The notes beneath the pieces were generated by a model. The model was not told the DNA's origin. It did not search any database and saw only the letters and a program-made list of their open reading frames with translations. This document shows positions 25,298 through 56,432 of a DNA stretch of 59,684 bases, piece by piece; the first letter of the stretch is position 1; each line of letters begins with the position of its first letter. A program made the translations under genes and the position numbers. The DNA is taken from the NCBI GenBank assembly GCA_019694755.1, contig JAIBBI010000017.1, forward strand, positions 1 to 59,684, written 5' to 3'. This DNA is from Gemmataceae bacterium. GTDB taxonomy: Bacteria; Planctomycetota; Planctomycetia; Gemmatales; Gemmataceae.

Positions 25298-25783
25298 CTA
25301 CAGTTTCCCGGCGGAGAGCCGCTTGCGGAAGACGACCTTGCTGTCGCCGTCGTTGAAATAGTCGCGGAGGACGGCATCCTGCTCGTAGCCGAGCGCGAGA
25401 TAAAAGCGCCGGGTCGGCTCGTATTCCGGCAGCGAGGAGGTGTCAATGAACAGCATCCGGCCCCCGGCCGCGAGCACGTCGGCCTCGCAGAACTCGACCA
25501 GTCGTCGACCGATTCCCGACCCGTGGCGGCGGGGATCGACGGCGATCCACCACATTTCCCAAGTGCCAAACGTCATGGTGTCGGGGGCATAGTAGACGAA
25601 CCCGGCCGGCACTTCATCGACCAAGATCGTTGCCGCCAGGTGGCCGTTCTCGTCTCGCTCGAATTCGAAATAGTCGTACAGCACTTCGCCGAGCGCTTCG
25701 ATCTCATAATCCTTGAACACGCCGGTCTCGGCCGCGATGGCGATCAGTGCGTCGGTGTCTTCGGGAATGGTCGGTCGGATCAT
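25298..25783 (-). CDS. GNAT family N-acetyltransferase
   Basis: A 161-residue GNAT fold: acetyl-CoA-binding segment WWIAVDPRRHGSGIGRRLVEFCE (R/Q-x-x-G-x-G/A pattern at about residues 85-107), preceded by VDEVPAGFVYYAP and followed by a C-terminal strand with YLALGYEQDAVLRDYF. It would transfer an acetyl group to an amine; the acceptor is unknown. It lies four nt after the HExxH gene, so it is the last gene of the long pfa-ole run by position. Whether it works with that pathway is unknown. Confidence 0.8.
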   Translation of the reverse strand: MIRPTIPEDTDALIAIAAETGVFKDYEIEALGEVLYDYFEFERDENGHLAATILVDEVPAGFVYYAPDTMTFGTWEMWWIAVDPRRHGSGIGRRLVEFCEADVLAAGGRMLFIDTSSLPEYEPTRRFYLALGYEQDAVLRDYFNDGDSKVVFRKRLSAGKL

Positions 25784-25787
25784 GAAT

Positions 25788-26330
25788 TCACGATAGGAGC
25801 CGCGGGTGAATCGTCCCGGGGATGATCCCGCCGAATTCGCCGAACTCGCTGGCCTCGTTTTCGAGCCGGTGAAACCAGCGCGGCCCCTCCCGCAGGAGCG
25901 TCACGGACCCGACGAGCGGCCAGTACAGGAACCCCATCCGGCGGGCCTGCGCGGTGTGTCCGCACTCGTGGGCTAGGATCTCGGCACACGAGCACCACGG
26001 TTGCCCGCCCGACCGGTAGCGGCGGTCGATGTCGCCGAGTCGACCGCCCGTTACTCGAACAGGGCGCACGGGCGTCGTCGGCTCCTGCGCTTCTTCCTCG
26101 ATCACGTCGCGGGCAAAGTCCCAGCCGACGGCAACAGCGCTGGCCGTCAGCGTGATGCAATGATTGCGCCAGAGCGGCCATCGGCTGGCCGCGTTGCGCC
26201 GATCATTGGCGAAGACATCGATGGGAGTCCAACCGGTCTCTCCCTCGCCGCGGCCCCGAATGCGGAACGCGACCACCCCGCCCATCAAGTGCAGGAAGGC
26301 AGAAGCCGCCGCATGACTCATCGGGATCAT
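25788..26330 (-). CDS. Hypothetical protein with HExxH zinc-site motif, tail of the ole run
   Basis: About 180 residues from ATG 26330, which lies five nt after the oleD stop. The longer frame to 26528 overlaps oleD and is unlikely. The central motif is EILAHECGHTAQARRMG, followed by FLYWPLVG and then RLENEASEFGEFG. HExxH plus a downstream glutamate is the usual zinc-peptidase layout, and small proteins of this type often hug the membrane after the motif. No named family can be assigned with confidence. Position suggests service to the pathway, for example on a lipid or protein partner, but that is inference. Confidence 0.6.
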   Translation of the reverse strand: MIPMSHAAASAFLHLMGGVVAFRIRGRGEGETGWTPIDVFANDRRNAASRWPLWRNHCITLTASAVAVGWDFARDVIEEEAQEPTTPVRPVRVTGGRLGDIDRRYRSGGQPWCSCAEILAHECGHTAQARRMGFLYWPLVGSVTLLREGPRWFHRLENEASEFGEFGGIIPGTIHPRLLS

Positions 26331-26335
26331 GGAGG

Positions 26336-27337
26336 TCAGGCCGGTGGGGGGGAGTCCTTCAGCCATTTGCCGAGCCGCACCAACCCCTCGGCCGTGCTGA
26401 CCTCGGCCGAGTACCCGAAATCGCGCCGGGCCGCCGATACATCGTACCAGTGCGAAGTCGCGAACTGCGAAACGAGAAATCGTGTCAGCCGGGGCTCGAC
26501 ATCGGGACGGAACACGGCGTGGCCCCATTCCAGCACACTCGCCACAGCCATCGCCGCCCGACGGCTGATGTGCCGCTCGATCGGCGGTAGCCCGGCCACC
26601 GCGAGGATACGGTTGATGAACTCCTTGATCTCGACCGGTTCCCCTTGCGAAATGAAGTACGCCCGCCCTGCCACCGGTGAGCCGGGCGCGAGGCGGTCGC
26701 CGGCCAGTAAGTGGGCCCGGGCAGCGTTGTCGACGTAGGTCACGTCGACGCGCTGCCGGCCGTCGCCCACGAAGCGGAACTTGCCGGCCCGCGCCCTTGC
26801 GATCAGCCGGGGGACGAGGTGATTATCGCCCGGCCCCCAGACCAGGTGCGGCCGCAGCGCGACGACCGAGAGGTCCGGCCCGTTGGCGGCGAGTGCTTCG
26901 CACTCGGCCTGCGCTTTGGTCCGGGGGTAGTTGGCCTCGAAGTGCCGGGCGATCGGCACTGTCTCGTCGACGCCCTCGAGATCGCCACCGGCATGGACAA
27001 CGCTGGGAGAGCTCGTGAACACAAGCCGGGCGACGCCCGCGGCCCGGCACGCGGCAATCACGTGGCGTGTGCCGAGGACGTTGGCCCGAAAATACTCGCG
27101 GTAGGGGCCCCACGACCCGGCTTTGGCCGCCACGTGGTAAACGATGTCGCACCCGCGTACGGCCCGCGCAACGGCGGCCGCGTCGCCGAGGTCGCCGTGG
27201 AATTGCTCGACGCCCCAGCGGTCGAGGACCGGGTAACTGCCGCGGGAAAAGCTGCGCACCGTAGCGCCGCGGTCGAGCAGCATGCGCACGACCGCGCCGC
27301 CGAGGAATCCGCCGCCGCCGGTGACGAGCGCTTTCAC
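26336..27337 (-). CDS. oleD: OleD: NAD(P)H-dependent 2-alkyl-3-ketoacyl reductase
   Basis: OleD reduces the beta-keto acid made by OleA to a 2-alkyl-3-hydroxy acid. The protein (333 residues) is an extended short-chain dehydrogenase. It has a Rossmann motif in ALVTGGGGFLGGAVVRML, DLGDAAAVARAVRGCDIVYHVAAKAG, and the catalytic SSPSVVHAGG serine region with YPRTKAQAE (Tyr-x-x-x-Lys). I choose the GTG at 27337, which makes the typical MKALVTGGGG start and overlaps the oleC stop as GTGA; the longer frame to 27358 adds MGGGKVT. It is the last of four ole genes in OleABCD order. Confidence 0.88.
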   Translation of the reverse strand: MKALVTGGGGFLGGAVVRMLLDRGATVRSFSRGSYPVLDRWGVEQFHGDLGDAAAVARAVRGCDIVYHVAAKAGSWGPYREYFRANVLGTRHVIAACRAAGVARLVFTSSPSVVHAGGDLEGVDETVPIARHFEANYPRTKAQAECEALAANGPDLSVVALRPHLVWGPGDNHLVPRLIARARAGKFRFVGDGRQRVDVTYVDNAARAHLLAGDRLAPGSPVAGRAYFISQGEPVEIKEFINRILAVAGLPPIERHISRRAAMAVASVLEWGHAVFRPDVEPRLTRFLVSQFATSHWYDVSAARRDFGYSAEVSTAEGLVRLGKWLKDSPPPA

Positions 27338-28929
27338 GGTAACCTTCCCGCCGCCCACTCGGCCAGCTTCTCCCGGAAGATCTTGGCATTATGCCGGACA
27401 TCGACCGGGAATGGCTTGAGGTAGATCAGAAACTCAGTAATCTCGCGGGTGTGCTCGTGGCTCGCCGCGACGTCTCGCAATTGTTTGAGGTAATTGGCGG
27501 GTGCGGCGCCGTTGCACTCGATACACACGACCGGCCGGCCGCGGACGCCGACCAATGCGGACCTCGCCACCCACGGAAGCACGTTGAAAACGGCCTCGAC
27601 CGGAATGGTGTCGAAGATCGCGCCCGCTGGCGTTTCGACCCGATGCGCCTTGCGCCCGCAGAACCAGAGCCGGCCCTGCTGGTCGAAGTAGCCGAGGTCG
27701 CCGGTCCGGTGCCAGATTCTTCCTTCGGATCGAATCTTGTGAACCGCGTCCGCCTCGGGCCGTTTCCAGTACCCGGACGAGACGACCGGGCCGCTGACAG
27801 TGATCTCACCGCGTTGACCTTTCGGGAGTGCGGCAGGGAGTTCGGCTAACGGACCGGGCGAAACCGGGATGATGCGGACCTCCACTCGTCCAACGGTCCG
27901 ACCGACGCAGACGCCGGCCCCCAGTTCCGAGAGCGCCCGGGTCTCGCTCAGAATCTCGTCGCCGCGGATCAGCGCGACCGGTAGAGACTCCGTCGCGCCG
28001 TAGGGCGTGTACACCGGGGCGTCCGCGGGAAGCATGGCGGTCATCCGCGCGATGACGGCCGGCGCGACCGGCGCGCCCGCACTCAGCACACGGCGCAGAG
28101 TCGGCAGATTAATGCCGTGCTTCTCGCCATATCGACTTAAGACGTTTATCAGCGCGGGTGAGCCGAACAGGTTGGTCACGCGATAGCGTTCCACGGCGGC
28201 TATGAGCATTCGCGGGTCAGCCCTGGCTGGGCGGGTCGGGTCCATCGTAGGGACTACCGCCGTCATGCCGAGCGCGGGAGCAAACAGCGCGAACAAAGGG
28301 AATGTGCAGAGATCGACCTCTCCCGGCTCGATCCCGAGCGATTCGCGCAAGACGCGTACCTGCTCCTGAAACATGCCGTGGGTATACATCGCGCCTTTGG
28401 CCGGACCCGTGCTGCCGCTGGTGAAAAGGATCGCAGCCGGCGACGAGTCATCGAGTTCCGCGAGGACCGGCCCGCCGGCCCGCCCGAGGCCGAGAACCTG
28501 CCGGAGGTTCATCGCGCCAGGCAAGCTCGGCCCGACCCAGACACATCGCGGCGGCCGCGCCCGACACCAGCCGAAAAGCAGGCGGGCCACCTGTGCTTTG
28601 GTCGAACCGATGAACAGATCGGCGTCGGCCTCATCGATGCACTTGCCCAGTCCGCGGACTCCCATTCCCGGGTCGATTAGCACCGGAATCGCACCAGCCT
28701 TGAACAGCGCGAACGTCAGCGCAAAAAACGGGAACCCGGGCGGCACCATGAGGACCACCCGCTGCCCGGGCGCCAACCCGAGTTGCCCCAGGCCGCGGGC
28801 GAGCGCGTCGCTTTCGGAGTCGAGGTCGCGAAATGTGTGCGTCGCACCGCTGCGGGAGTCGATCACGGCCGTCGCGTTGCCGCGATCCCGCGCCTGCTCC
28901 GGCAACCAGCGCGAGATGTTGGCCGTCAT
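27334..28929 (-). CDS. oleC: OleC: beta-lactone synthetase (AMP-ligase fold)
   Basis: OleC adenylates the 2-alkyl-3-hydroxy acid and closes it to a beta-lactone. The 531-residue protein belongs to the acyl-adenylate superfamily. The P-loop-like motif ILFTSGSTGPAKGAMYTHG is near residue 175, VYTPYGATES near 315, and WHRTGDLGYFDQQGRLWFCGR near 415. The small C-terminal lid (about 430-531) retains KAHRVETPAG. Family and order between oleB and oleD make OleC far more likely than a generic fatty acyl-CoA ligase. The start overlaps the oleB stop by four bases (ATGA). Confidence 0.88.
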   Translation of the reverse strand: MTANISRWLPEQARDRGNATAVIDSRSGATHTFRDLDSESDALARGLGQLGLAPGQRVVLMVPPGFPFFALTFALFKAGAIPVLIDPGMGVRGLGKCIDEADADLFIGSTKAQVARLLFGWCRARPPRCVWVGPSLPGAMNLRQVLGLGRAGGPVLAELDDSSPAAILFTSGSTGPAKGAMYTHGMFQEQVRVLRESLGIEPGEVDLCTFPLFALFAPALGMTAVVPTMDPTRPARADPRMLIAAVERYRVTNLFGSPALINVLSRYGEKHGINLPTLRRVLSAGAPVAPAVIARMTAMLPADAPVYTPYGATESLPVALIRGDEILSETRALSELGAGVCVGRTVGRVEVRIIPVSPGPLAELPAALPKGQRGEITVSGPVVSSGYWKRPEADAVHKIRSEGRIWHRTGDLGYFDQQGRLWFCGRKAHRVETPAGAIFDTIPVEAVFNVLPWVARSALVGVRGRPVVCIECNGAAPANYLKQLRDVAASHEHTREITEFLIYLKPFPVDVRHNAKIFREKLAEWAAGRLP

Positions 28930-29798
28930 GACGACAGGAATTGTGCAATGACCGGGATCAACTCATCCCCGGCGTCTTCCAGCAAGTAGTGACCTGCGTC
29001 GGCCAGTGCGACCGTCCGGGCCTTCGGGAATCGCCGCTGCCACTCGGCCAGAAAGTCGCCGTCGAATACGAAGTCACGCAGACCCCACGCGAGCAACATT
29101 GGCTTTTCCGCGAGGCGGGACAAACCGCTCGCCGTCTCGTTGATGATGTCGAATCCGGGGTCCCCGCGGCGCAGCGGGATGGTCCGCACGAATTGATGCA
29201 CGGCCACGCGGTTGGCCCACGAGTTGTACGGTGCGAGGAATTGTTCCCGGACTTCGGGGTCGAGCGGCCGACGCACGACGCACGACCTCGCCGCGCCGCG
29301 GCAGAACAGATTCAGCCCCCTGATGAGGATCGGACCGAGCACGGGATTACGACCGAGCCAAAGTTGCCAAGGCAGTTTCTTGCCCGCCGGCAGCGGAAAC
29401 GCGGCCGTGTTCATAACGACCATCTTTTCCACGCGGTTGGCGTTGCGCGTCGCCCACGTGGTGCCGATCATCCCGCCCCAGTCGTGGACAACCAGACTCA
29501 CCGGCCCGGTCGGGGCGACCGTGTTAACGAGCGAGTCGAAGTCCGCAATCCGGCGTTCGAGCGTGTAAGGATACGTCCGCAGGCTCGGCTTGTCGGATCT
29601 GCCGCACCCGATGTGGTCGGGCGCGATGACGCGAAACGACGGCTTCAGCGCGGCGATCAGGCCGCGGTAGAAGTACGACCAGGTGGGGTTACCGTGAACG
29701 AGAAAAACCGGGTGGCCGGCCCCTTCGTCGATGTAATGCAGGCCGACGCGGTCGAGATCGAGCCGTTTCCCGGTAAACGGAAACTCCGGGCCTACCAT
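28926..29798 (-). CDS. oleB: OleB: beta-lactone decarboxylase (alpha/beta hydrolase)
   Basis: OleB removes CO2 from the beta-lactone to leave a cis-olefin. The 290-residue enzyme is a haloalkane-dehalogenase-like alpha/beta hydrolase: oxyanion motif HGNPTW (35-40), nucleophile Asp106 in VVHDWGG, a later acid in WGLRDFVFDG, and histidine in LADAGHYLLED. Asp rather than Ser at the elbow fits OleB and dehalogenases. It is kept separate from OleC, unlike the OleBC fusions known in some actinobacteria. The start overlaps the oleA stop by seven bases. Confidence 0.88.
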   Translation of the reverse strand: MVGPEFPFTGKRLDLDRVGLHYIDEGAGHPVFLVHGNPTWSYFYRGLIAALKPSFRVIAPDHIGCGRSDKPSLRTYPYTLERRIADFDSLVNTVAPTGPVSLVVHDWGGMIGTTWATRNANRVEKMVVMNTAAFPLPAGKKLPWQLWLGRNPVLGPILIRGLNLFCRGAARSCVVRRPLDPEVREQFLAPYNSWANRVAVHQFVRTIPLRRGDPGFDIINETASGLSRLAEKPMLLAWGLRDFVFDGDFLAEWQRRFPKARTVALADAGHYLLEDAGDELIPVIAQFLSS

Positions 29799-30904
29799 TG
29801 CACGCCCAGCATCAGGCAGTTGAGGCCTGAGCCGATACCGAGGAACCCGACGCGGTCGCCGGGCCGGAGGAATTTGTCCTCTTCGGCGAGGGCGGCAGTG
29901 ATCGGCAGCGAAGCCGTGCCGATGTTGCCGAGGAACGGAAACGTCGAAAAGTCCTTCTCGATCGGAATGCCGAGCGCCTTCAGGACCGAGTCGCGATGAC
30001 TCGAGCCGACCTGATGGCAGATCACGCGGTCGACGGAATCGACCGCCCAGCCGAGCTTAGCGCCGAAGCCCTTCCACGTCCGCATGCCGAGATCGACGCC
30101 GTACTTCAGCACGTTGATCGCGTCGGTGTTCATGAACGGCATGACGCAGTGCTTCAGGCCGTAGTCCATACCGTGCCGGAGCCGGCTCGCGGCCTCGGAG
30201 TTCCACAGGTTGTTGACGGCATTCTCGATCGACTGGAAGCCCCACCGGCACAGGGCATGGTGTTGCGAGGCGTTCTGGGTTTCGCCGCCGATCAGTTGTC
30301 GCCGACGTTCGGTGGCGAACGACCCGTCGGTCACAACGACCGCGGCCGCCCCACTCCCCCCGGTGAGCGTGGCGAGCGTGGTCTTGAACGTCTCCATGTC
30401 GCCGTTTCGCAACATGCACTCGATCATTGCTTCATTGATTTCGCGGGCGGTCTCACACGACACCACGAGGCCGGCGCGGATCTGGCCGAGCTCGATGCGG
30501 TTGGCGATGTCGACGATCCCGTTGAGGACGCCGAGGCATGCGTTGGACAGGTCGTACACGGCCGCCCCGGGGCTGACACCGAGCCCGGCGGCGATCGTGC
30601 AGGCGGTAGCGGGCTCGATCTGCTCCCGGCACACGCCGGCGTAGATCACGACATCAATTGCCTCGGCCGGAACGTCGCATTTGCCGAGCGCCTGGCGGGC
30701 GGCCGCCAATGCACCTTCCGACAGCGGATACCCGGCCTCCCACCACCGGCGGTGGTGAATGCCGGTCCATGCTTCGAGCTGGCCCTGCGGAATGTAGAGC
30801 CGCTTGTAGAGCGGCGCGAGCCGGGCCTCGAGTTCCGCGGTGGACACCACCACGGGGGGCAACTCGTAGCCGATCGCGTCGATGAATACTTTGGAATACC
30901 GCAT
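29792..30904 (-). CDS. oleA: OleA: thiolase-fold acyl-acyl condensing enzyme
   Basis: OleA performs head-to-head Claisen condensation of two activated acyl chains, giving a 2-alkyl-3-keto acid. The 370-residue protein is FabH-like: Cys123 in SNACLGVLNG, His297 in VICHQVGSSH, Asn327 in FPFLGNIGT. Glu97 in CREQIEPAT lies 26 residues before the cysteine, the spacing I recall for the special glutamate (Glu117 to Cys143) of Xanthomonas OleA. This supports OleA over an ordinary KAS III. The Cys-His interval (174 residues) is longer than in Xanthomonas OleA as I recall it (142). GAAGG precedes the ATG. It directly follows the KS-CLF-AT-DH-DH gene, with a 3-nt gap. Confidence 0.9.
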   Translation of the reverse strand: MRYSKVFIDAIGYELPPVVVSTAELEARLAPLYKRLYIPQGQLEAWTGIHHRRWWEAGYPLSEGALAAARQALGKCDVPAEAIDVVIYAGVCREQIEPATACTIAAGLGVSPGAAVYDLSNACLGVLNGIVDIANRIELGQIRAGLVVSCETAREINEAMIECMLRNGDMETFKTTLATLTGGSGAAAVVVTDGSFATERRRQLIGGETQNASQHHALCRWGFQSIENAVNNLWNSEAASRLRHGMDYGLKHCVMPFMNTDAINVLKYGVDLGMRTWKGFGAKLGWAVDSVDRVICHQVGSSHRDSVLKALGIPIEKDFSTFPFLGNIGTASLPITAALAEEDKFLRPGDRVGFLGIGSGLNCLMLGVQW

Positions 30905-30907
30905 TCG

Positions 30908-33900
30908 TCAGCCTTCAATGGCGAAATCGGTCATCCGGTAGATGACCCGCCCGTCGACAGCCAGGCTTCCATTCGCTGTGAGGTGGCGGGTAGCGTCCGA
31001 TATTGTAGCTATTTCGGCCTGTACCGTCATGGCCCTGTTGGTCGGAATCACCTGGCCGCGGTACTCCCAGACGTGGGTGGTGCCGACCGCGGGGATTTGC
31101 CGGTCCGGGTTGGCCCCCCACCGCCTGGTGGCCGCCAGGTCGAGCAACTGCAAAAACGCCTCGAGTCCCAGCGATCCGGGCATGACCGGATCCTGGTGGA
31201 AGTGGGCCCGGAAAAACCACTCGGCCGGGTCGACCTGCTTGATTCCTCGCACGAACCCCTGCCCTGCAGGCCCGCCGTCGGCCACGTACTGTTCCACGGT
31301 GTCGACCATCCGCCACCGGGTATCGGGGTATGCCGGCTGGTCGGGATATCCGAACTGTTCCCCCGGCCGAGGCTCCACGGGCGGTTTGAAGTCACGCACC
31401 CCCACCTGATCCGCCAGGGCTGCCTTCGAGAAGAATCCGAAATAGGTCGTCCCGTCGTAGACCGGCCGGCCCGCCGCGTCGGTCACGGAGAAGCTGTAAT
31501 GCTGGATCAGCATGCCCCCGGCCGCGGAGACTTTGGTCGACCGGGCCCGCGTGCAGAGCCGACCCGTGTGCCGGGTCACGGACCGGTGCAACGTTGCCTT
31601 GCCGCCAAGGTTGCGGAACGACAGATCGATCGCACTCGTCAGCGCGGAGCCCATGAAGGCCGCCAGCCATCCGCACGGCTGCAGCGCGACTTCGAGCAAC
31701 ACGGCGAACGGCATCGTGTCGCGGCGATACGCGTCGAAATACCACGCGTCTGCGGGTACGTCGTATTCGGCATCGACGATGTCGCCAGCCTGCACCACCC
31801 ACGGCTCACCCGTTACTGCCACAATCCTGTCGAGGAACATGTACGGCGGGCCGGGCAGCCGGGCGATGACCCGTTCGGTATCGAACGGCCGATACCTGTC
31901 ACCGAACGCTTCCGACGGTTTGCCCGTCGCGAACGCCAAGATGCTGGCCGTGTCGTACAGCGCGGGCCGGCCTGATTGCGCCGGCCCCTCCCGTCGACCC
32001 CAGAGCTCGCGCAGCGTTTCGCGATCGGTCCCGGTCAGGCGGACCGACATGTTGGTGATCTCGACAATCGGCTTTCCGTCGGCATACATCAGCACGTCGG
32101 CCAGCGCGTACGGTTCGGGCCGGAATCCGAGTTCCTTGACGGCCACCTCGTAAGTCACAAGGCGGGTCGCCTCCGTAACCTGCCCCCGGCACTTCAGCTT
32201 GCTCGCCACGCCCGGCACGGGTTCCCATGCGAGGGTGTCATGCTCGCCGACCCAGCCACATCGCATCAGGTAAACCCGCAGCGTGTGCAGGCAGCACTCG
32301 TACATCACCGTGCCGGGCATCACCATGTCGTCGACGAAATGACACGTCAGATACCAGTCGTCCGGCGCGACGTCCGCATCGCCGCGAATCAGGCCGAGTC
32401 CGAAGCGGCCGCCTTTCGGGTCGAGGTGTGTAATGCGGTGAACGAGTCGCAACTTGTCGCCCGGCAGGCGGGTCGGCGCTTCGAGGGGCAAGCCAGCGAA
32501 CGCGTCGCCGAAGCAATCGGCCAGGTCGCCCTTGCGCAGGCAATCAATCTGCGCGTCGGAGTACGATTCGACCCCGGCGATTGCGACCAGTTCGACCCAT
32601 TCGGCCGGCAGGGTCCGCGGATCGGGCCGTTTGTCGAGCGTCGTCTGTACCACGCCCTGCCCGGCCGCCAGTTCCTCGGCCGTGAAAAAGCCAGCACAGC
32701 CTTGCGCCATCGACAGAAGCGGCTGACCGTCGATCGTACCTTCGAACCGGAATCGGAACAGGTGCGTCTCGCCCTGGCGGAAGAACCTGTCGATGTGAAT
32801 GTCGTAACGGATGACTTCGCCGGGCAACGGCAACCCGCGGTGAAACGTCACGACCGCGTCGAGCAGCCGGTAGACGGCCTTGCCCCGGGTCCGGGCGTCG
32901 ATCCCCAGGTAGCCCGCGAGAAACAGGTCGGCCTGCCCGCTCTCGACGGCGATGCAGGTCGGCATCTTTCCGTGATCAAGATACCAGCGGTCGGGCCCGA
33001 CGTCGTGCTCGGTCACGACCCGACCCGAGCCCAGCGAGTGTGGCTCTCCCTCGACGAGGACGATCCGGTCGACGAGCATCAGCGGCTCGTCCGGTAACCG
33101 CACCCGCGTCGGGAAACTATCGACCTCGGCATACTCCGGGCCCAGCACCGGTGCAATCTTTCCGATCGCGAATTCCATGCACTGCGGGCGGTCGAGGAAG
33201 ACGTCCTGCCGCGAAACTTCGCTTGGAGGAACGGCATCACTCACGGCCCATTGTGCGACATGTCGATCGATGCCGCGGGCGAACTCCAAGTAGGCCGCGT
33301 GGGCCAGGCCCACGGCATGCTGGGCGTTTGCGATTCTCGCAAACAGTGAAGCAGGTTCGCTGGCCACGCCCGCGCCGGGTAACGCCCGACGCGCCGCCGG
33401 AAACGTCGCGCGGGCGTCGACGGCCGGCGCCCGCCCCTGCAACGCGCTCAAATCCACTGCCCGTCCTTCGGCCCGGAGCCGGGCAAGTGTCGTCAGCAAC
33501 GCGGTGAGTTCTCCATCGGGATGGGCCGTCGCGGCCAGCGCGACGTGGGGCCGGCCGGCGAGAATCGCGCTGATCGCCCGGGTGCAGGAGCCGCCCGGTC
33601 CGATCTCGACAAACGTCCGAACACCCGCGGCATAAGCCGCCTCCACCAGTCGCGGAAAGTCGACGGTGTGTAGTGCTTGTGCCAGGACGGCCTCGGCCGC
33701 CGACTCGCGGGTCAGCTCCATCGGCCGGGCGTGGACCGGGTGATAGAACTCGATTCCTTCCGGCACCGACACGGGCAACGAATGCAACTCCCGATATTCG
33801 CGCTCGACGGCCCGGATCACATCGCAATGCGCGGCAGTCACGTGTTCCAGCGGCACGACCGGGGCCCGGACCTGAGCTACGAACGATTCCACCGCAGCGA

Positions 33901-36613: not shown

Positions 36614-38769
36614 GCTTCGGCTCCCGCCAGCGAGTTCCTGGCAAAAGCCGATGACAGGCCGCCCGAACAGATGTGCTCGAGCGCAGTGACCGACAGTATG
36701 ATGCGACCGGCCGCATCGCGAGCGACGGCATCCGCACGGACGCTCGAGGCCGTCGAATGCGTGACCCGAATCTCAATCGAGACCGGGCCGGGTTCCATGA
36801 CCGCGGCGACGGTCAAGCCAGCGAATCCGGTGGGGAGCGACGGCAGACCGAGCTCACGCTGGGTGTAAATGATGACCGCCTGAAGAACGCTGTCGAGCGC
36901 GAGCGGGTCGCCGTGCCAGCTCCTCAACTCGCCGCCCGGCAACCAGTCGGCAGCCGGCGGCGCTGTCCGCGCTGACACGATGATCCCCGACCCGTCACAC
37001 GAAACGACGCGGTCGACCGCCCGCCAGGCCGGCCCGTGAAACAGGTCGGTCCGGTAGCACGAATCCGTCGAGGGCAGGTCGAACGGTAAGGCCCGCCGAT
37101 GCCAGCCCGGAGCGGCCTCGAGCACGACGTTGGCCCGGTAACAGGTCCGCCCCTCGACCTCGATGCGGGCGGCACACGCCATGCGTTCGCCCGTTCGGAC
37201 GGGTGGGTCGACGTGTACGATCAGCTCGGCGGGAGCCGTCACGGCTTTCAGCACCCGCAGTTCTTCCACGCCGGCGAATCGCCGGCCGGGGTAGCGCCGG
37301 ACAGCGGCATCGGCGAGGAACTCGACAGCCAGTGCGACTGGCAGGACTGCCCGCCGATTGATGACATGGTCGGCGAGAACGGGGATCTTTTCGACGGTGG
37401 CCGGGTATCGCGTCGGCTCGGCCGGCGGCGGCCCGAGGACGACGACCTCGGCCGGACCGTTTGATGCCGAGAGTTCAGCGACCAGCAGCTTTGCCCCGGC
37501 ATCGGTCGGAATCAGGCCCACGCCTTCCGCCGCGAACAACTGCCGGAGCGCGGGCGTCACCATCCCACCTTCCCACGGGCCCCAGTTCAGGGCCACCGTC
37601 CGGCATTCGGGCAGCTTGACGGCGAGTCGGCGAGCCCGAGCGTTCAAGTATTCATTGGCGGCGGCGTAGTCGCCCTGACCCGTTCGGCCGAATCGGCCCG
37701 TCGACGACGAGAAAAGTGCAACGAAGGCCAGCGGGTCGCCGGCACAAGCTGCCAGAAGTGACTCCAGGCCTTTTACTTTCGTTTCGTAGACGCTCCGGAA
37801 CTGCTCGTCGGTCTTGTCGAGGAGCAGCTTGTCGGCCAGGACACCCGAACCGTGGATGATGCCGCGGACCGGGCCGAACCGCGCACGGCACTCGCTCAAC
37901 GTGGCCGCGACTGCGGCCGCGTCGCGGACATCGACGGCGCGGTACTCAACGGCCGCGCCGGCATCGGCGATCCGCCGGAGGTTGGCCCGAATCTCGCGGT
38001 CGGCGAGGACTCGCTGGCACGCGGTCTCAATCTGCCGGGGCGTCTGCGGGGAAGCGGCCCGGGCTATCAACGCTTTGCGGATGGCCGGTGGTTCGACAAG
38101 CGATTGCAACCAGTCCGGCTCAACCTCCGGCAACGGCGAACGACCCAGCAGGAGCAGCGTCGGGCGGTAGGTGGCTGCGACGGCAAGTGCACACGCGGCC
38201 GTCACGCCCCGCGCGCCGCCGGTCACGACCACGAGCGACCGTGCGGGCAGGTTCAGCGGCGGCACTGTGGCCGGCTGCGGCTCATGAACGAGGAACAGGC
38301 CGCGGGCCTCGTCGGCCAGCGCGGTCTCGACCGGCCCTTCGCGGTGAATTTCGTCGGCGAGTCGTTCGGACGCGACCGGCTCGCCCGCGTCAATCACCCG
38401 GCAATCGACTTCCGGCCATTCGTGCCCGGCTGTCTTCACCAGTCCGGCGATCGCGGCGCCGGCCGGGGCGCACCCGCTGCTGAATCGGCCGTCGCCCCGA
38501 ATCACCAGTCGTAACACGCCACCGCCGGTCCGGAGTTTGGGCCCGGCGAGTCGCAGCCAGCGCAGCGCATGCAGCGCGACATCGTCGTGCGGGTCCCGCG
38601 ACGTGCAGAAAATGAGTCCGCCTAACTTCGCCGGCACATCGGGGCTGTCCCAAGGATGGACTGCCGCCCCGAGCAACTGAGCCAACTCAGGTTCCGCGTC
38701 GCCGACCACGATGATAGGTCCGCCGAAAGGCAACACCGGGCGGCCGACGGGGATGGTGCCCAATCGCAA
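36610..38769 (-). CDS. PUFA-synthase-like ketoreductase-dehydratase protein (KR-DH)
   Basis: A 719-residue stand-alone KR-DH. It has an N-terminal non-catalytic Rossmann half (about 15-170) and then the catalytic KR (about 175-445) with NADPH motif VTGGARGVT, serines in FSSSTGRFG (354-356), Tyr368 and Asn372 in GDYAAANEYL. A polyketide-type dehydratase follows (about 455-710), with His468 in VLADHVINRRAVLP and a plausible acid in GDPLALDSVLQ. In most Pfa systems these domains are fused behind the ACP repeats; here they are a separate gene starting 35 nt after the KS-AT-ACP stop. The only available start is TTG at 38769 (or TTG two codons later), without a clear ribosome-binding site. Confidence 0.88.
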   Translation of the reverse strand: MRLGTIPVGRPVLPFGGPIIVVGDAEPELAQLLGAAVHPWDSPDVPAKLGGLIFCTSRDPHDDVALHALRWLRLAGPKLRTGGGVLRLVIRGDGRFSSGCAPAGAAIAGLVKTAGHEWPEVDCRVIDAGEPVASERLADEIHREGPVETALADEARGLFLVHEPQPATVPPLNLPARSLVVVTGGARGVTAACALAVAATYRPTLLLLGRSPLPEVEPDWLQSLVEPPAIRKALIARAASPQTPRQIETACQRVLADREIRANLRRIADAGAAVEYRAVDVRDAAAVAATLSECRARFGPVRGIIHGSGVLADKLLLDKTDEQFRSVYETKVKGLESLLAACAGDPLAFVALFSSSTGRFGRTGQGDYAAANEYLNARARRLAVKLPECRTVALNWGPWEGGMVTPALRQLFAAEGVGLIPTDAGAKLLVAELSASNGPAEVVVLGPPPAEPTRYPATVEKIPVLADHVINRRAVLPVALAVEFLADAAVRRYPGRRFAGVEELRVLKAVTAPAELIVHVDPPVRTGERMACAARIEVEGRTCYRANVVLEAAPGWHRRALPFDLPSTDSCYRTDLFHGPAWRAVDRVVSCDGSGIIVSARTAPPAADWLPGGELRSWHGDPLALDSVLQAVIIYTQRELGLPSLPTGFAGLTVAAVMEPGPVSIEIRVTHSTASSVRADAVARDAAGRIILSVTALEHICSGGLSSAFARNSLAGAEA

Positions 38770-38804
38770 GACGAGTCGAGATAACGAAGATTCGCCCGGG
38801 AGGC

Positions 38805-41800
38805 TTAGCGGCTCGCGCCGGCCGGGCTCGGGACTTTTTTTTCCGAGTCTCCCGACTCGAACAGGTCCAGCACTTCCCGCAGCGTCCGCAGCGATCCGAG
38901 TCGGTCCGGCGGCACGGCCGGGAGGTTCGGCTGACGCTCCTGCACGGCCGAGAGAATCTCGACCCGTTTGATCGAATCGATGCCCAGGTCCGCGTCCAAC
39001 CCCATGTCCAGGCCGAGCATCTCGACCGGGTAACCGGTCTTCTCCGCGACGACTTCCAGCAGGAGCGATTGCAGTCTCGCATCAATTGTTGCAGCGGGTG
39101 CGGCCGCAGGCGCGGTCACTGTTTCTCCAGTTTCCTGAAGAATTGCCACGACATCACGCAGCGATCGGAGCGAGCCGAGCCGATCGGGTGCGACGGCCGG
39201 AAGATCTGGCCGCTTTTCCTGCAGGGCCGAGAGGATTTCCACCCGCTTAATCGAGTCGATTCCCAGATCGGCGTCCAATCCCATGTCCAGGCCGAGCATT
39301 TCAACGGGATACCCCGTCTTCTCCGCCACGATCGCCAGCAGCGTCTGCGTCAGACTGTCCGCAGGAGGTGCGGCGACGGGCGCCACGACGGCCACCGGCG
39401 GTGCGGGCTTCGGCGGCGCGACCTCGATGGGTCGTGGTGCCGGCGCGGGTGGCGGCGGAGGAGGCGGAGCGGGCCGAGGCGTGACGATAGGTGCCACCGG
39501 GGCCGGTGGCTTGGGTGCAGGTGAAGGCGGGGCGACCGGTCGCGGCGCCGCGGCAGGCGTGTTCAACGGGAGCAGCGGCGCGCCACCCGCGAGGAGTTGC
39601 TGCTGGGTCGCGAGGATGGCCTGAAGCGTCTTTTGGGCCTCGGTCTGCTGTTCGAGGAAGGTACGGTGCAATTCGGCCGTCTGCTGCTGCAGGCGCTCGA
39701 ATGCCGCGAGCGACTCCCGCGCGATTTGCAGTGCCCGGCCGTGATCGCTTGGCGTGTCAGACATCGGTTTCTCGGGACGCGCGGCTGGCGTCGCTACGGT
39801 TTTGGGTGTCGGCTGCGGTGTCGGCAGCAGTTCCTTCCGCGGAGCCCGGTAGTTGGCGCCACAGATCGGGACGATCAGGCCACGAGTCTCGGCCGGCGGG
39901 GCGGGCGGCGAAGGATCCCAGGCCGCGAGGTCGATTCCGTACCCCCATGCGGCCAGACGGCCCAGCAGGCGGGCCAGGTCCGCGGCCCCGGACCGTCGGC
40001 CGCCGGGCGTCTCGGTCGACGCGGCCCAGTGAGGCCGACCTTCCAGAATCGCTCCGACCAGTCGAGTCAGCGTGTTGCCGGGTCCCACTTCGACAAACGT
40101 CGTGACCCCGGCTTCCGCCATGTTGCGGATTTGCGCGACAAAATCAACAGGCTGGGCAAGCTGTGAGGCCAGCAGATCCCGCGCCGCCTGCGGATCGCGC
40201 GGGTATTCCCGGCTGGTACTGTTGGCGTACACCGCGAGCCGCGCTTCCCGGAACGCCACGGGGTCCAGCGCGGCCCGGAACGGCCGGGCAGCTTCGGCGA
40301 CCAGTGAGCTGTGAAACGCCCCTGCGACTGGTAGCCGGACGTGCCGCAGTTTCCGCCGCGAGAGCGATACCTCGGCCCGGGTGATCTCCGCCACCGATCC
40401 GCTGAGAACCGCCTGTGTGGGTGAATTGCGATTCGCGATGACGAGGCCGAATTTCTCTTCGGCAAAGGCAGACTCGATCTCGGCCAGCGGAGCCATGACG
40501 GCGAGCATCGTCCCGGCCTGATCGCCGCCCCGGGCCATGAGTCGGCCGCGGAGTTGTGACAGGGCAAACAGGCTGGCCGGCTCGAAACAGCCGGCCGCAC
40601 ACAGCGCGGTCAGCTCGCCATAGCTGTGTCCCGCGGCGGCGTCCGGCTTCAACCCAAATGAACGCAGCACCTCGAGCGCGCCGAGGCTCACCGCACCGAG
40701 CGCGGGCTGCGCGACGGATGTGTCCCGAAGGGCCGATTCCTGAGCCGCTTTCGCGTCCGGAGTGAAGGCACGGGTCGGATAGATGAAGTCCGTCAATCGC
40801 CGGTCGGCCTCCTGCGCGAACGCATCGTTGGCCTGTTCAAGCACATCCCGGAACCTCGGAAAGCGGCAAGCCAGGTCGCGGAGCATGCCGACGGATTGCG
40901 CCCCCTGTCCCGGGAATAGCACGGCCAACTTCCCGGGCCGGCCCCGCCCCAGATAAACCCCCTCGGCCTCGGCGAAATCGCTCTCCGGCCCGGCCAGCAG
41001 TTCCAGAGCGCGTTTCACGACTTCGGCAGGGTTGTCTTTCCGCTCGAACACGATGACGAGTCGCCAGCTGGCCTCCGGGCGAAAAGCCGAGCGCGTCGCC
41101 GTGGCCGCGTGCCGGATTGCCTTCCAGTCGGAGACGGGGAAGCACTCCATCGCCCGTGTGATTTCACTTCGGGTCGGGGCCGACCAGGCGGCAATCGCCA
41201 ATTCGGGATCCCAGTCGGGCGTACGCTGCGTGGCATACTCTTCGAGCACGCAGTGGAAATTGGAGCCGCCGAACCCGAAGGAACTGACCCCCGCCCGCCG
41301 CGGCCGCCTGCCGCGCGGCAACCACGGGATGGGCAGATCCGTGACGGCAAACGGCGAGTCTTCGAGTACCGGTGCCGGCTGATCCACCTTTGCCGTAGGC
41401 GGCAGCGTCTGCCGGTAAAGTGCGGTCGCGGCTTTGATCAAGCCGGCCGCACCGGCCGCCGCCTTGGTGTGCCCGATCTGCGACTTCACGGCCCCGATGA
41501 TGGTCTGACCCGGCTTCGTGCCGGCCGCCCGGAACACCTCGGTGAGCGCTTGCAGTTCCGTCGCGTCGCCGACCTTCGTCCCGGTTCCGTGCGCTTCGAT
41601 CAGGTCGATGGAATCCGCGGTGATCCCGGCCTGTGCGTAGGCGTCCTCGAGGCAGCGTTTCTGGCCCGGCGCAGTTGGCGCGTACACCGCGTTTCCCGCG
41701 CCGTCGCTGCTCGTGCCCAGACCTTTGACGACGGCATAGATGCGGTCGCCGGCCCGCTCCGCGTCGGCAAGCCGCTTCAGCACCATCATGCCCAGGCCTT

Positions 41801-42605
41801 CGCCCAGGATCGTGCCGTCGGAATTGGCAGAGAGCGGCCGGGCATCGCCCGTCGGCGAGAGCGCGGGCGTCTTGCTGAAGCACATGTACATGAAGATGTC
41901 GTTGAACGTGTCGACTCCGCCCGTCAGCACGGCATCGGCCCGCCCGGCCTGCAATTCCAGCGCGGCCAGGTGCAACGCGGAAAGGCTCGACGCGCACGCC
42001 GCGTCCACGACGCAATTGGTCCCGCCGAGGTCGAGCCGATTGGCGATCCGCCCGGCCACCACGTTGCCCAGCAGACCGGGGAACGAATTCTCCTGCCAGC
42101 CGACGTAGCCGTCGGCAATCCGCTTCATGGCATCATCGATCTGCGCTTCGGGAATGCCCGCGGCCCGCATCGACTTCTTCCAAAGCGGGTGCCCCAGCCG
42201 GGCCCCGAGGGGCACGACCATCTCCAGCGTACCGGTCACGCCGAGGATGGTGCTGATACGCTTGCGATCGACCCCCGGTGCGAGCAAGCCGGCGTCGTCG
42301 AGGGCCATTTTGGCCACCACCAGCCCCAGCAGTTGGGCCGTGTCGATGGCCTCCAAGTCGCGCGGGGCGATCCCGAACTCGGCCGGGCGAAATGGATATG
42401 CGTCGAGGAAGCCGCCGCGCTGGGCGTAGGTGAAGTCGGGCTTGCGCGGGTCGCCATCGAAGTAGTCGGCCGGGCTCCAATGCGTGGCTGGCACCGCGGA
42501 GATCCCGTCGACTAGCGACTTGATGTTAGCCCAATACGATTCCAGGCTGTCCGCTTTCGGAAACAGGCACCCCATGCCGACGATCGCCAGTGGCATCTCA
42601 GTCAA
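38805..42605 (-). CDS. pfaA: PUFA-synthase-like subunit KS-AT-ACP-ACP (PfaA-like)
   Basis: The chain-extending subunit, 1266 residues. KS (about 3-460) has Cys204 in DAACASS, His339 in EAHGTGT and His379 in KSQIGH, with the PfaA-like phrase NSFPGLLGNVVAGRIANRLDL. The malonyl-type AT (about 555-870) has Ser661 in GHSYGE, FPGQGAQ and GAFHSS. A Gln-rich helical and Pro-rich linker (about 950-1080) leads to two acyl carrier domains with phosphopantetheine serines S1118 and S1211 in LGIDSIKRVE. Two ACPs is at the low end for Pfa proteins. KR and DH, normally fused downstream, are on the next gene. It overlaps the enoyl-reductase stop by eight bases. Confidence 0.92.
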   Translation of the reverse strand: MTEMPLAIVGMGCLFPKADSLESYWANIKSLVDGISAVPATHWSPADYFDGDPRKPDFTYAQRGGFLDAYPFRPAEFGIAPRDLEAIDTAQLLGLVVAKMALDDAGLLAPGVDRKRISTILGVTGTLEMVVPLGARLGHPLWKKSMRAAGIPEAQIDDAMKRIADGYVGWQENSFPGLLGNVVAGRIANRLDLGGTNCVVDAACASSLSALHLAALELQAGRADAVLTGGVDTFNDIFMYMCFSKTPALSPTGDARPLSANSDGTILGEGLGMMVLKRLADAERAGDRIYAVVKGLGTSSDGAGNAVYAPTAPGQKRCLEDAYAQAGITADSIDLIEAHGTGTKVGDATELQALTEVFRAAGTKPGQTIIGAVKSQIGHTKAAAGAAGLIKAATALYRQTLPPTAKVDQPAPVLEDSPFAVTDLPIPWLPRGRRPRRAGVSSFGFGGSNFHCVLEEYATQRTPDWDPELAIAAWSAPTRSEITRAMECFPVSDWKAIRHAATATRSAFRPEASWRLVIVFERKDNPAEVVKRALELLAGPESDFAEAEGVYLGRGRPGKLAVLFPGQGAQSVGMLRDLACRFPRFRDVLEQANDAFAQEADRRLTDFIYPTRAFTPDAKAAQESALRDTSVAQPALGAVSLGALEVLRSFGLKPDAAAGHSYGELTALCAAGCFEPASLFALSQLRGRLMARGGDQAGTMLAVMAPLAEIESAFAEEKFGLVIANRNSPTQAVLSGSVAEITRAEVSLSRRKLRHVRLPVAGAFHSSLVAEAARPFRAALDPVAFREARLAVYANSTSREYPRDPQAARDLLASQLAQPVDFVAQIRNMAEAGVTTFVEVGPGNTLTRLVGAILEGRPHWAASTETPGGRRSGAADLARLLGRLAAWGYGIDLAAWDPSPPAPPAETRGLIVPICGANYRAPRKELLPTPQPTPKTVATPAARPEKPMSDTPSDHGRALQIARESLAAFERLQQQTAELHRTFLEQQTEAQKTLQAILATQQQLLAGGAPLLPLNTPAAAPRPVAPPSPAPKPPAPVAPIVTPRPAPPPPPPPAPAPRPIEVAPPKPAPPVAVVAPVAAPPADSLTQTLLAIVAEKTGYPVEMLGLDMGLDADLGIDSIKRVEILSALQEKRPDLPAVAPDRLGSLRSLRDVVAILQETGETVTAPAAAPAATIDARLQSLLLEVVAEKTGYPVEMLGLDMGLDADLGIDSIKRVEILSAVQERQPNLPAVPPDRLGSLRTLREVLDLFESGDSEKKVPSPAGASR
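38856..39359 (-). repeat. Tandem acyl-carrier domain repeat within the KS-AT-ACP-ACP gene
   Basis: Two ACP units of about 75 residues lie about 93 residues apart. They are identical at protein level over TGYPVEMLGLDMGLDADLGI plus DSIKRVEILSA, yet their DNA differs at many third codon positions. This means an old duplication held by selection on the protein, not a recent copy. Confidence 0.85.
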
Positions 42606-44142
42606 GGACGTCGACCTCCCGGGGCGGGACGCGGGCCACAGCAGGCGACACGTTCACCCCCTGCGCTCGGGCGAACTGGATCCGAGTCTGCACGGCCGCG
42701 CCGAAGAGCAGCGCTCGGGCGACCGGGGCCACCCGACGATTTTCCGGTTTCTCGAGAAACGACCCGGCCGTCCACTCGTTGAACGCGCCGAGCGCGGGCC
42801 CGGCCCAGACCTGGAAGTCCATCCGGCGATCCATCTGCCCGGCATTGGCCCATCGAGAGCTGAGCCCCAAATACCAGCGGAACACCAAAGCCATCTTGTG
42901 TCGCGGGTCGGTCTCGGCCCGGGCAAGCTGGCGGGCGTCGCGCCCGGCCCAGAACTGCCGGGTCTCTTCCCAGACCTCGGCGATCGGCTTGCGGAAGATC
43001 TCGGTTTCTAGCCGCGCCCGGTCGGCCGCGGGAATCGCTTCCAGCGACTCGTAGCCCCGGTACAGCTCGAAGAGTCGGCCGGCCCGCATCGGAAACATGG
43101 TGCCGCGTTTGAGCACCTGCACCTTCACGCCCATCTCAAACATGTCGGCCGCGGGCGCCATCACGACATCCGCCTGCCCGGCCTCGGCGAGCATCTGGCG
43201 CACGCCGGGCGACGAGCCGCTTTCGATACAGGCCTGGTTGATGGACCCGGTCACGACGTAAGCCGCGCCAAGTGCGAACGCAGCCGCGACGCCCGCCGGG
43301 GTCGCGATGCCGCCGGCCGCGCCGACCCGGAGCGCTTCTGCATAGCCGTACTTCTCTTGCATCCGGTCGCGCACCGCCACGAGTGTGGGCAGCAGCGTGA
43401 CCAGCGGACGATTGTCGGTGTGGCCGCCGCTGTCGGCCTCGGCCGTCAGGTCGTGGGCTACCGGAATCTCGCGGGCCAGTTCGGCCTGGTCGCGGCTCAG
43501 GTCGCCCGATTCCACCAGTTCGCGGATGAACCTGTCCGGGGCGGGCGCGAGGAACTTGGATGCGACTTCAACCCGCGAGACCTTGGCGACGACGCGATTC
43601 GGAGCGATCACCCGCCCGTCCTGCCCCCGACGGATACCGTGCAGCCGGTACTTCACGATCGGCAACGTCAGGTCGAGAAAGGCGGACGCTTCAACCAGGC
43701 GGACGCCCCGCCGGATCAGCATGGCGGCGACGGCGGCCTCGGTCGCCGGCTCGTGCGGGCTGTGAATGAGGTTGCAGCCGAACGGCCGGTCGTGCAGCCG
43801 GCGTCGCAGATCATCGACGGCGGCTGTGACGCGGTCGACCGAAAGCCCCGCCGCGCCGAAGAACCCGAGCATGCCGGCCCGGCTCATCGCCTCGACGAGT
43901 TCGACCGACGCGATACCGTTGGCCATGGAGCCGGCGACGTATGCAAACTTCAGCCCGTGCGCCTGGCGGAAAGCGGCATCGCCCAACTGGCCGGGTCGGA
44001 CCGCGGGTACGTAGGCGTCGGCACGGGCACGCGGCTCGGCGTCCCACCATTGGCCGCCGGCATACCAGAGCGGTCGTTCGGGGCTGTGCAGCAGCGACTC
44101 GGCGACTGGCTCGGCAGCGGTTTCTGGCTGGTTCAGGAGCAT
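42598..44142 (-). CDS. pfaD: PfaD-type trans-acting enoyl reductase
   Basis: PfaD is the FMN-dependent enoyl reductase that serves PUFA synthases in trans. The TIM-barrel, nitronate-monooxygenase-like core is clear: FAYVAGSMANGIASVELVEAM, GFFGAAGLSVDRV, FGCNLIHSPHEPATE, the conserved DSGGHTDNRPL, GAAGGIATPAGVAAAF, and the C-terminal FDFQVW-like stretch followed by PALGAFNEW. The frame is open to 44235, but the extra 31 residues do not look like the family and a promoter candidate lies inside them, so ATG 44142 is preferred. It is the first gene of the ten-gene run and is divergent from the cytochrome c gene. The stop overlaps the next start by eight bases. Confidence 0.9.
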   Translation of the reverse strand: MLLNQPETAAEPVAESLLHSPERPLWYAGGQWWDAEPRARADAYVPAVRPGQLGDAAFRQAHGLKFAYVAGSMANGIASVELVEAMSRAGMLGFFGAAGLSVDRVTAAVDDLRRRLHDRPFGCNLIHSPHEPATEAAVAAMLIRRGVRLVEASAFLDLTLPIVKYRLHGIRRGQDGRVIAPNRVVAKVSRVEVASKFLAPAPDRFIRELVESGDLSRDQAELAREIPVAHDLTAEADSGGHTDNRPLVTLLPTLVAVRDRMQEKYGYAEALRVGAAGGIATPAGVAAAFALGAAYVVTGSINQACIESGSSPGVRQMLAEAGQADVVMAPAADMFEMGVKVQVLKRGTMFPMRAGRLFELYRGYESLEAIPAADRARLETEIFRKPIAEVWEETRQFWAGRDARQLARAETDPRHKMALVFRWYLGLSSRWANAGQMDRRMDFQVWAGPALGAFNEWTAGSFLEKPENRRVAPVARALLFGAAVQTRIQFARAQGVNVSPAVARVPPREVDVLD

Positions 44143-44207: not shown

Positions 44208-44337
44208 TTGCGCCCGCCCTGCGGTCGCAGGTCATTTTCCCGCCGCTCCCGGACCGACGCGACCGACGATTACAACCGGACCGCCGACCCCGGCCGCCTC
44301 GCCGGGGGTGAAAAATGCGTCAAAATCGGCGGGCTGA

Positions 44338-44435: not shown

Positions 44436-44828
44436 ATGCGGAAAATGCTGACGGGCGCGACAATCCTGATGGCCCTGTTCGCGGGCGCGGTTTTCGCCGC
44501 CGACACGCCGGACATCGAGACCATCATGAAGAAGGTCAACGGCAAAAACGGCCTTCACAAGAAAGTCGGCGAGGGTATCAAGAGTGACAGCCCCAAGTGG
44601 GACGACATCTCCAAGCAGATGAAGGACTACTCAAGCATGGCCGCCGACCTCGGCAAGAACGCCTGCCCGAAGGGCGACAAGGCGAGCTGGGACAAGCTGA
44701 CCAAGGCCTACTCCGACAACGCCAAGAAATTGGCCGATGCCGTCGAGAAGAAAGACAAGTCGGCCGCCTCCGCTGCCCACGGCGCACTCCAGAAGTCGTG
44801 CAAGGCCTGCCACGACGTCCACAAGTAA
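44436..44828 (+). CDS. Periplasmic cytochrome c, class II (c-prime)-like
   Basis: A 130-residue exported haem protein. A signal peptide (MRKMLTGATILMALFAGAVFA) is followed by a Lys-rich, all-helical domain with the haem site CKACH near the C-terminus (KSCKACHDVHK). A C-terminal CxxCH on a four-helix protein is the class II layout; such proteins carry electrons or bind NO. Start ATG 44436 is chosen because GAGGAG lies about nine bases upstream and the signal peptide starts there; the longer frame begins within the divergent gene. A strong promoter and terminator flank it, so it is monocistronic. Confidence 0.82.
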   Translation: MRKMLTGATILMALFAGAVFAADTPDIETIMKKVNGKNGLHKKVGEGIKSDSPKWDDISKQMKDYSSMAADLGKNACPKGDKASWDKLTKAYSDNAKKLADAVEKKDKSAASAAHGALQKSCKACHDVHK

Positions 44829-56069: not shown

Positions 56070-56432
56070 GTGGAGATCATTGCAATCGGCACCGACATCG
56101 TCGAATGCGCGCCCCTCCTGGCCCAGATCGAAAAGCTCGGCGAGGTCTTTCTCCGGAAGGCGCTGACACCGCGCGAGATCCGCGAATGCCGGTCCCGCCC
56201 GCGAAGTACGGAGGCGTTTGCCGGGCTCTGGGCGGCAAAGGAGGCAGTGTTGAAGTGTCTGGGCTATTCCGGCACCCGGGCGCCGCGCGGCGATATCGAG
56301 ATCCGCGGCGGCGAAGTCCACCTGAGCGGCCTGGCGCGGGACCGCGCCGCCGACCGAAACATCTCGCGATTCCTGCTCTCTGTCGCGGCGACCCGGCAAT
56401 ACGCCACGGCCACCGCCCTCGCCGTTCACTAA
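56070..56432 (+). CDS. acpS: Holo-[acyl-carrier-protein] synthase
   Basis: Transfers 4'-phosphopantetheine from CoA to the serine of acyl carrier proteins. The 120-residue length fits AcpS, not the larger Sfp type. The magnesium-binding IGTDIVE lies at the N-terminus and LWAAKEAVLKCLG near residue 60 supplies the conserved Glu and Lys. The start is GTG 56070, with TAGGAG eight bases before. It is divergent from pcrA. It is the only phosphopantetheinyl transferase in the window and thus a candidate to load the two Pfa carrier domains, though Pfa systems usually use an Sfp-type PfaE. Confidence 0.9.
   Translation: MEIIAIGTDIVECAPLLAQIEKLGEVFLRKALTPREIRECRSRPRSTEAFAGLWAAKEAVLKCLGYSGTRAPRGDIEIRGGEVHLSGLARDRAADRNISRFLLSVAATRQYATATALAVH

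Follow-up and report, generated by a model that had tools for sequence, protein, structure and literature searches.

Does a densely packed gene run in a Gemmataceae contig encode one pathway, from the building of a polyunsaturated acyl chain to the joining of two such chains, and if so, where does that pathway end and is its arrangement new? The contig (JAIBBI010000017.1 of assembly GCA_019694755.1) was analysed over a stretch of 59,684 nucleotides, here called the window. The run lies at 25298-44142 on the minus strand, where genes for a polyunsaturated fatty acid (PUFA) synthase (pfa) precede oleA, oleB, oleC, and oleD. It is very probably a pfa-ole operon of Type I, the class of Geobacter and Gemmata; by analogy with Geobacter bemidjiensis, it would join two polyunsaturated chains into a long cis-polyene, most likely C31:9. 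This reading is preferred because the enzyme families and their motifs are intact, the gene order is conserved among relatives, and the trees of OleA and PfaBC are congruent.

Genes of the run and the predicted product

The synthase and ole genes, in 5' to 3' order, are:

42598..44142, minus strand: pfaD, PUFA-synthase enoyl reductase (TIGR02814, 636 bits, over cut-off)
38805..42605, minus strand: 5' part of pfaA, KS-AT-ACP-ACP, TTG start (omega_3_PfaA, 1034 bits, over cut-off)
36610..38769, minus strand: 3' part of pfaA, KR-DH (Pfam KR and PS-DH; NCBIfam PfaA C-terminal part)
30908..36613, minus strand: pfaBC fusion, KS-CLF-AT-DH-DH (Pfam ketoacyl-synt twice, AT, and FabA three times)
29792..30904, minus strand: oleA, head-to-head acyl condensing thiolase (NF006720, 474 bits)
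28926..29798, minus strand: oleB, beta-lactone decarboxylase of the haloalkane-dehalogenase fold (NCBIfam)
27334..28929, minus strand: oleC, beta-lactone synthetase (NF006754, 635 bits, over cut-off)
26336..27337, minus strand: oleD, 2-alkyl-3-oxoalkanoate reductase (NF042422 oxyalk_red_OleD, 439 bits, below the cut-off of 580)

The run is genuine: its genes, strand, order, and tight spacing were all verified, and the named domains were all recovered with Pfam and NCBIfam, so that the close packing described in the original prediction, including one 35-nt gap, is borne out. If each gene is given the start that overlap supports best, the computed junctions are overlaps of 8 nt (pfaD and the 5' part of pfaA), 4 nt (the 3' part of pfaA and pfaBC), 7 nt (oleA and oleB), and 4 nt (oleB and oleC, and again oleC and oleD), a gap of 3 nt between pfaBC and oleA, and the 35 nt between the two parts of pfaA. 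Internal promoters and terminators within the run did not exceed the numbers found in shuffled sequence, and the run would probably be co-transcribed. The host genome (5.6 Mb in 335 contigs) has a single pfaD and a single matching oleA.

The catalytic residues of the synthase KS, AT, ACP, and FabA-type DH sites are intact. The 5' part of pfaA has the KS Cys in DAACAS, the AT motif GHSYG, and two GIDSIK phosphopantetheine sites, and in pfaBC the KS Cys, the Ser and His of the AT, and the His of both FabA-type DH domains are present, whereas the CLF has no Cys. Read from ATG 44142, the pfaD product has 514 aa. The gene may instead begin at 44235, and alignments with at least 30 relatives set in at about residue 46-84 of that longer open reading frame (ORF). 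Both the pfaBC fusion (KS-CLF-AT-DH2) and the placement of pfaD 5' of pfaA, followed by pfaBC, are Type I features. The domains of the one-protein Type I PfaA, KS-AT-ACPn-KR(-DH), are all present in order, but the frame is broken at a run of eight As (A8). In the trees of OleA and PfaBC, the locus falls among clusters from planctomycetes and delta-proteobacteria.

The four ole products have the features of a complete OleABCD pathway. In an alignment with Xanthomonas OleA (3row), the active-site Cys, the Glu, HQV, and GN(I/M)G are conserved. The OleB nucleophile Asp (HDWGG) and His (GHY) are kept in 60 of 60 relatives, and OleC has the conserved motifs TSGSTG and YGATE, with equivalog models scoring 543-586 bits, below their own cut-offs. 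The oleD gene has a GTG start within its 4-nt overlap with the oleC stop, and its product has GGGGFLG and YxxxK. Their position directly after pfaBC, on one strand, is a feature of the G. bemidjiensis-type tandem. Separately, OleA residues 224-257 form an insertion of variable length that differs among planctomycetes and could touch a Pfa acyl carrier protein (ACP).

The proposed pathway starts with PfaA, PfaBC, and PfaD, which would build a polyunsaturated chain, most likely 16:4-ACP, on the tandem ACPs. OleA would then draw two chains straight from the ACPs and condense them head to head, OleD would reduce the beta-keto acid, OleC would close the beta-lactone, and OleB would decarboxylate it to a long cis-polyene. 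The product is most likely hentriacontanonaene (C31:9) or a close homologue, with chain length and unsaturation predicted by analogy, because G. bemidjiensis, which has the same tandem order, makes C31:9.

Several observations weigh against this assignment. Chain length is unreadable from the DNA, the assembled pfaA does not stay in one frame, and there is no pfaE-type phosphopantetheinyl transferase gene after oleD, where the G. bemidjiensis-type tandem has one. Additionally, the PfaB-like AT of PfaBC has the motif GNSLG where most relatives have GYSLG, and Moritella PfaB depends on the Tyr at that site as an essential residue (PMC12895367); acyl release by the PfaBC AT may therefore differ here. 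Among relatives, N at the Tyr site is also seen in loci L118 and L149, and H in loci L137-L139 of one family (f21).

A different long product, such as a partly reduced olefin, a polyunsaturated ketone left at the OleA stage, or additional free PUFA released by the PfaB-like AT, is unlikely but deserves some weight. Product identity is not contained in the sequence, PfaB is a terminal acyltransferase in systems for eicosapentaenoic and docosahexaenoic acid (PMC12895367), and Ser and His are kept in all PfaBC AT domains, so acyl transfer or release may persist. However, a ketone as the end product is at odds with oleB, oleC, and oleD that are complete and have conserved motifs, and the closest published match makes C31:9.

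Activation of the PfaA ACPs could be provided from elsewhere. A possible activator lies about 12 kb from the run:

56070..56432, plus strand: AcpS-type phosphopantetheinyl transferase (PF01648; holo-ACP synthase models below cut-off)

A further candidate PfaA activator is a 470-aa thioesterase-phosphopantetheinyl transferase fusion on another contig of the host (C92, locus L158, 436-1848). The operon has no PfaT-like thioesterase; proteins of the 4HBT family sit on other contigs.

Spread and co-inheritance of the pfa-ole linkage

If the linkage of pfa and ole genes were peculiar to this genome, it would be of interest in itself, as the original prediction had supposed. The search of relatives that it had proposed returned the same order across Planctomycetota: pfaD-pfaA-pfaBC-oleA-oleB-oleC-oleD is found in most complete loci of several planctomycete families (40 fetched regions). 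By hand count, a phylum sample held 47 genomes with PfaD and a strong OleA match, 27 of them with both on the same contig and 23 of these 27 within 25 kb. In the family sample, pfaD and oleA share a contig, about 12-17 kb apart, in 13 of the 25 genomes that have both. They lie on different contigs in the other 12, where cases with long contigs (such as G418) are true separation and the others may reflect fragmentation.

Beyond the phylum, pfaBC is directly upstream of oleA in 59 of 75 informative OleA loci from named genomes, a fraction that is not a census since the 80 loci surveyed were those that best matched an OleA profile built from planctomycetes. Most of those with enough downstream sequence (39/44) continue into oleB, oleC, and oleD. 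The linked loci include those of Geobacter, Geomonas, Geomobilimonas, Pelotalea, Singulisphaera, Aquisphaera, Limnoglobus, and Candidatus Uabimicrobium, and others occur in metagenome-assembled genomes labelled Acidobacteria, Elusimicrobia, Verrucomicrobia, Betaproteobacteria, and Thiotrichaceae. The unlinked exceptions among named genomes are Shewanella and Psychromonas; the original prediction had already given the Shewanella loci as separate.

Two variant arrangements were also observed. In Candidatus Uabimicrobium amorphum (L136 and L218), the genes are permuted to pfaA-pfaBC-oleABCD-pfaD, which puts pfaD last, at the 3' end. Two Pirellulaceae-like loci (L149 and L151) have pfaBC and oleA together, with pfaD-pfaA elsewhere and no oleBCD match nearby; this adjacency is in keeping with PfaBC and OleA working closely together, although two genomes prove little.

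Trees of OleA and of the DH-DH part of PfaBC are congruent over 84 loci (patristic r = 0.79; the highest value under permutation was 0.22), sharing 20 well-supported splits, and only 1 of 29 supported OleA splits is in conflict. This agreement shows that the cluster is inherited as a unit. The consistent adjacency of pfaBC and oleA, the two Pirellulaceae-like genomes included, also supports the view that the PUFA synthase passes its chains directly to OleA.

The idea that chain building and chain joining are encoded together thus holds, with a dedicated long polyene as the best fit, but the novelty of the linkage is rejected by the phylum, family, and named-genome surveys and by the literature. 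Linkage is usual outside Shewanella and Psychromonas, has been published for G. bemidjiensis, and was noted in 2011, when Gemmata obscuriglobus was listed as Type I (Shulse and Allen 2011, PMC3098273). The original prediction's mention of C31 polyenes from planctomycetes is backed by a statement that C31:8 and C31:9 were identified there (Rattray et al. 2009, PMC2649909); a search of the papers available found none on C31:9 in Gemmataceae isolates. The locus is one more planctomycete case of a kind of cluster that is apparently far wider spread than the marine Shewanella model suggests, and where C31:9 is used as a biomarker, planctomycetes are to be counted among its potential sources.

The frame break in pfaA

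The original prediction had counted KS-AT-ACP-ACP and KR-DH as two genes. Close to their junction lies a homopolymer:

38835..38842, minus strand: A8 run, site of the pfaA frame break (sense-strand phase GAA AAA AAA GTC)

The run is in exact A_AAA_AAA slippery phase, and a -1 shift there links the two parts of pfaA. In all 27 comparable relative loci with both domains, KS-AT-ACPn-KR-DH is a single ORF. Against a profile of relatives, the joined PfaA scores 292.6 bits and the separate pieces 197.7 and 72.5. The linker residues that match relatives, SSLSRLVLRLG, begin before the first possible KR-DH start. That start, TTG 38769, is preceded by 312 nt with no other in-frame start, and no Shine-Dalgarno-like sequence is found in the 20 nt upstream of it. 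Together, the fused relatives, the score of the joined protein, the linker, and the missing Shine-Dalgarno-like sequence indicate that the 35-nt "gap" is a frame break and not a gene boundary, and pfaA would be functionally one protein despite it.

A one-base indel, in the assembly or in the strain, is the likeliest cause of the break and is favoured over programmed recoding. Where homology confirms a frame break that occurs only as a singleton, sequencing error is the expected cause (PMC3711429), and the A8 break is found in no relative. The genome has about 49 runs of A8 or longer; in all six other A8/A9 runs that are flanked by clear coding sequence the frame is kept, a small sample given that most of the 49 are unclassifiable. 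Systematic homopolymer miscalls in the assembly are therefore not supported. Two candidate parallels were also rejected: an apparent second split pfaA (L120) is caused by ten Ns in its assembly, and an A9 run between two ORFs (L257) separates members of unrelated families.

Decoding of a single pfaA by programmed -1 ribosomal frameshifting or by transcriptional slippage is doubtful. The exact slippery phase is what such recoding would use, the six in-frame runs argue that miscalls are not systematic, and E. coli reporters show about 10% frameshifting at A_AAA_AAA and 40% at nine As (PMC3711429). However, besides the lack of the break in relatives and the expectation of sequencing error, the RNA downstream of the A8 run is not unusually structured (z = 0.29). 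Slightly less probable again is that this lineage makes its PfaA by frameshifting or slippage between the ACPs and KR, which would fix the ratio of a short KS-AT-ACP2 protein to full PfaA; if true, recoding would tune polyene synthesis. We know of no recoded PUFA synthase.

Least probable of the accounts of the break is that there are two true pfaA genes here, with KR-DH starting at TTG 38769. Both ORFs are long and open and are separated by 35 nt, but this is quite improbable in view of the 27 fused relatives, the higher score of the fused protein, the linker that begins before the TTG, and the absence of an earlier start or a Shine-Dalgarno-like sequence. A natural split, as in the Type H of Shulse and Allen, was rejected, since relatives carry a fused pfaA.

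Limits of the operon and comparison with known systems

Three further genes flank the pfa-ole genes:

44436..44825, plus strand: divergent cytochrome c'-type gene (PF01322, 32.5 bits, over cut-off; CxxCH motif)
25788..26330, minus strand: HExxH protein, 180 aa (no Pfam or NCBIfam match)
25298..25783, minus strand: GNAT acetyltransferase (PF00583)

The cytochrome c'-type gene is the upstream limit of the operon and leaves about 200-290 nt for a promoter. Downstream, the HExxH gene follows oleD after 5 nt and the GNAT gene follows the HExxH gene after 4 nt, and an HtrA protease gene lies 113 nt past GNAT. As read from gene neighbourhoods, the conserved operon is pfaD to oleD only, which is seven genes with pfaA taken as one and not the ten initially proposed. 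Homologues of the HExxH protein occur in 9 of 58 other related genomes, scattered among Gemmataceae-like genomes; where oleA and pfaD are also present they are on other contigs or far off, and several of the genomes that bear them (G394, G402, and G408) have no OleA match. No HExxH or GNAT homologue was found in the 40 fetched pfa/ole loci or in further named loci, many of which end near oleD. The HExxH protein has the conserved motifs HE(C/I)GHT and FENxAS, and a comparison of its AlphaFold model (pLDDT 78) with the PDB gave no significant match. It was rejected as a pathway enzyme on the neighbourhood evidence, and it and the GNAT protein are judged to be probable bystanders that may be co-transcribed with oleD. 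That the whole ten-gene run is one functional pathway is very improbable: gaps of just 4-5 nt make co-transcription with oleD plausible, but the distribution of the homologues speaks against a shared function.

Among known systems, the closest is G. bemidjiensis, in which pfaD, A, B, C, oleA, B, C, D, and pfaE are in tandem and C31:9 is made (Yoshida et al. 2016, PMC4882568). The two loci share the same genes in the same order, the pfaBC fusion, and a complete oleABCD directly downstream, and differ in that the Gemmataceae locus has no pfaE after oleD, has a pfaA interrupted at the A8 run, and is from a different phylum. Shewanella would share the chemistry, with OleA drawing on Pfa-derived acyl-ACP and OleBCD finishing the olefin, but its pfaABCDE and oleABCD are unlinked and its pfaB and pfaC are separate genes. 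Shewanella OleA takes two acyl chains from Pfa ACPs (PMC6463001), and E. coli with Shewanella pfaA-E and oleA makes a 31:8 ketone, also when acyl-CoA synthetase is absent (Allemann et al. 2019, PMC6463001). The OleA fold and catalytic residues are those of Xanthomonas OleABCD (structure 3row), although Xanthomonas OleA is without the roughly 30-residue insertion found here at 224-257. Xanthomonas OleABCD uses ordinary fatty acyl chains. Overall, the locus is a further member of an already described cluster type and is essentially ordinary, save for the frame break in pfaA.

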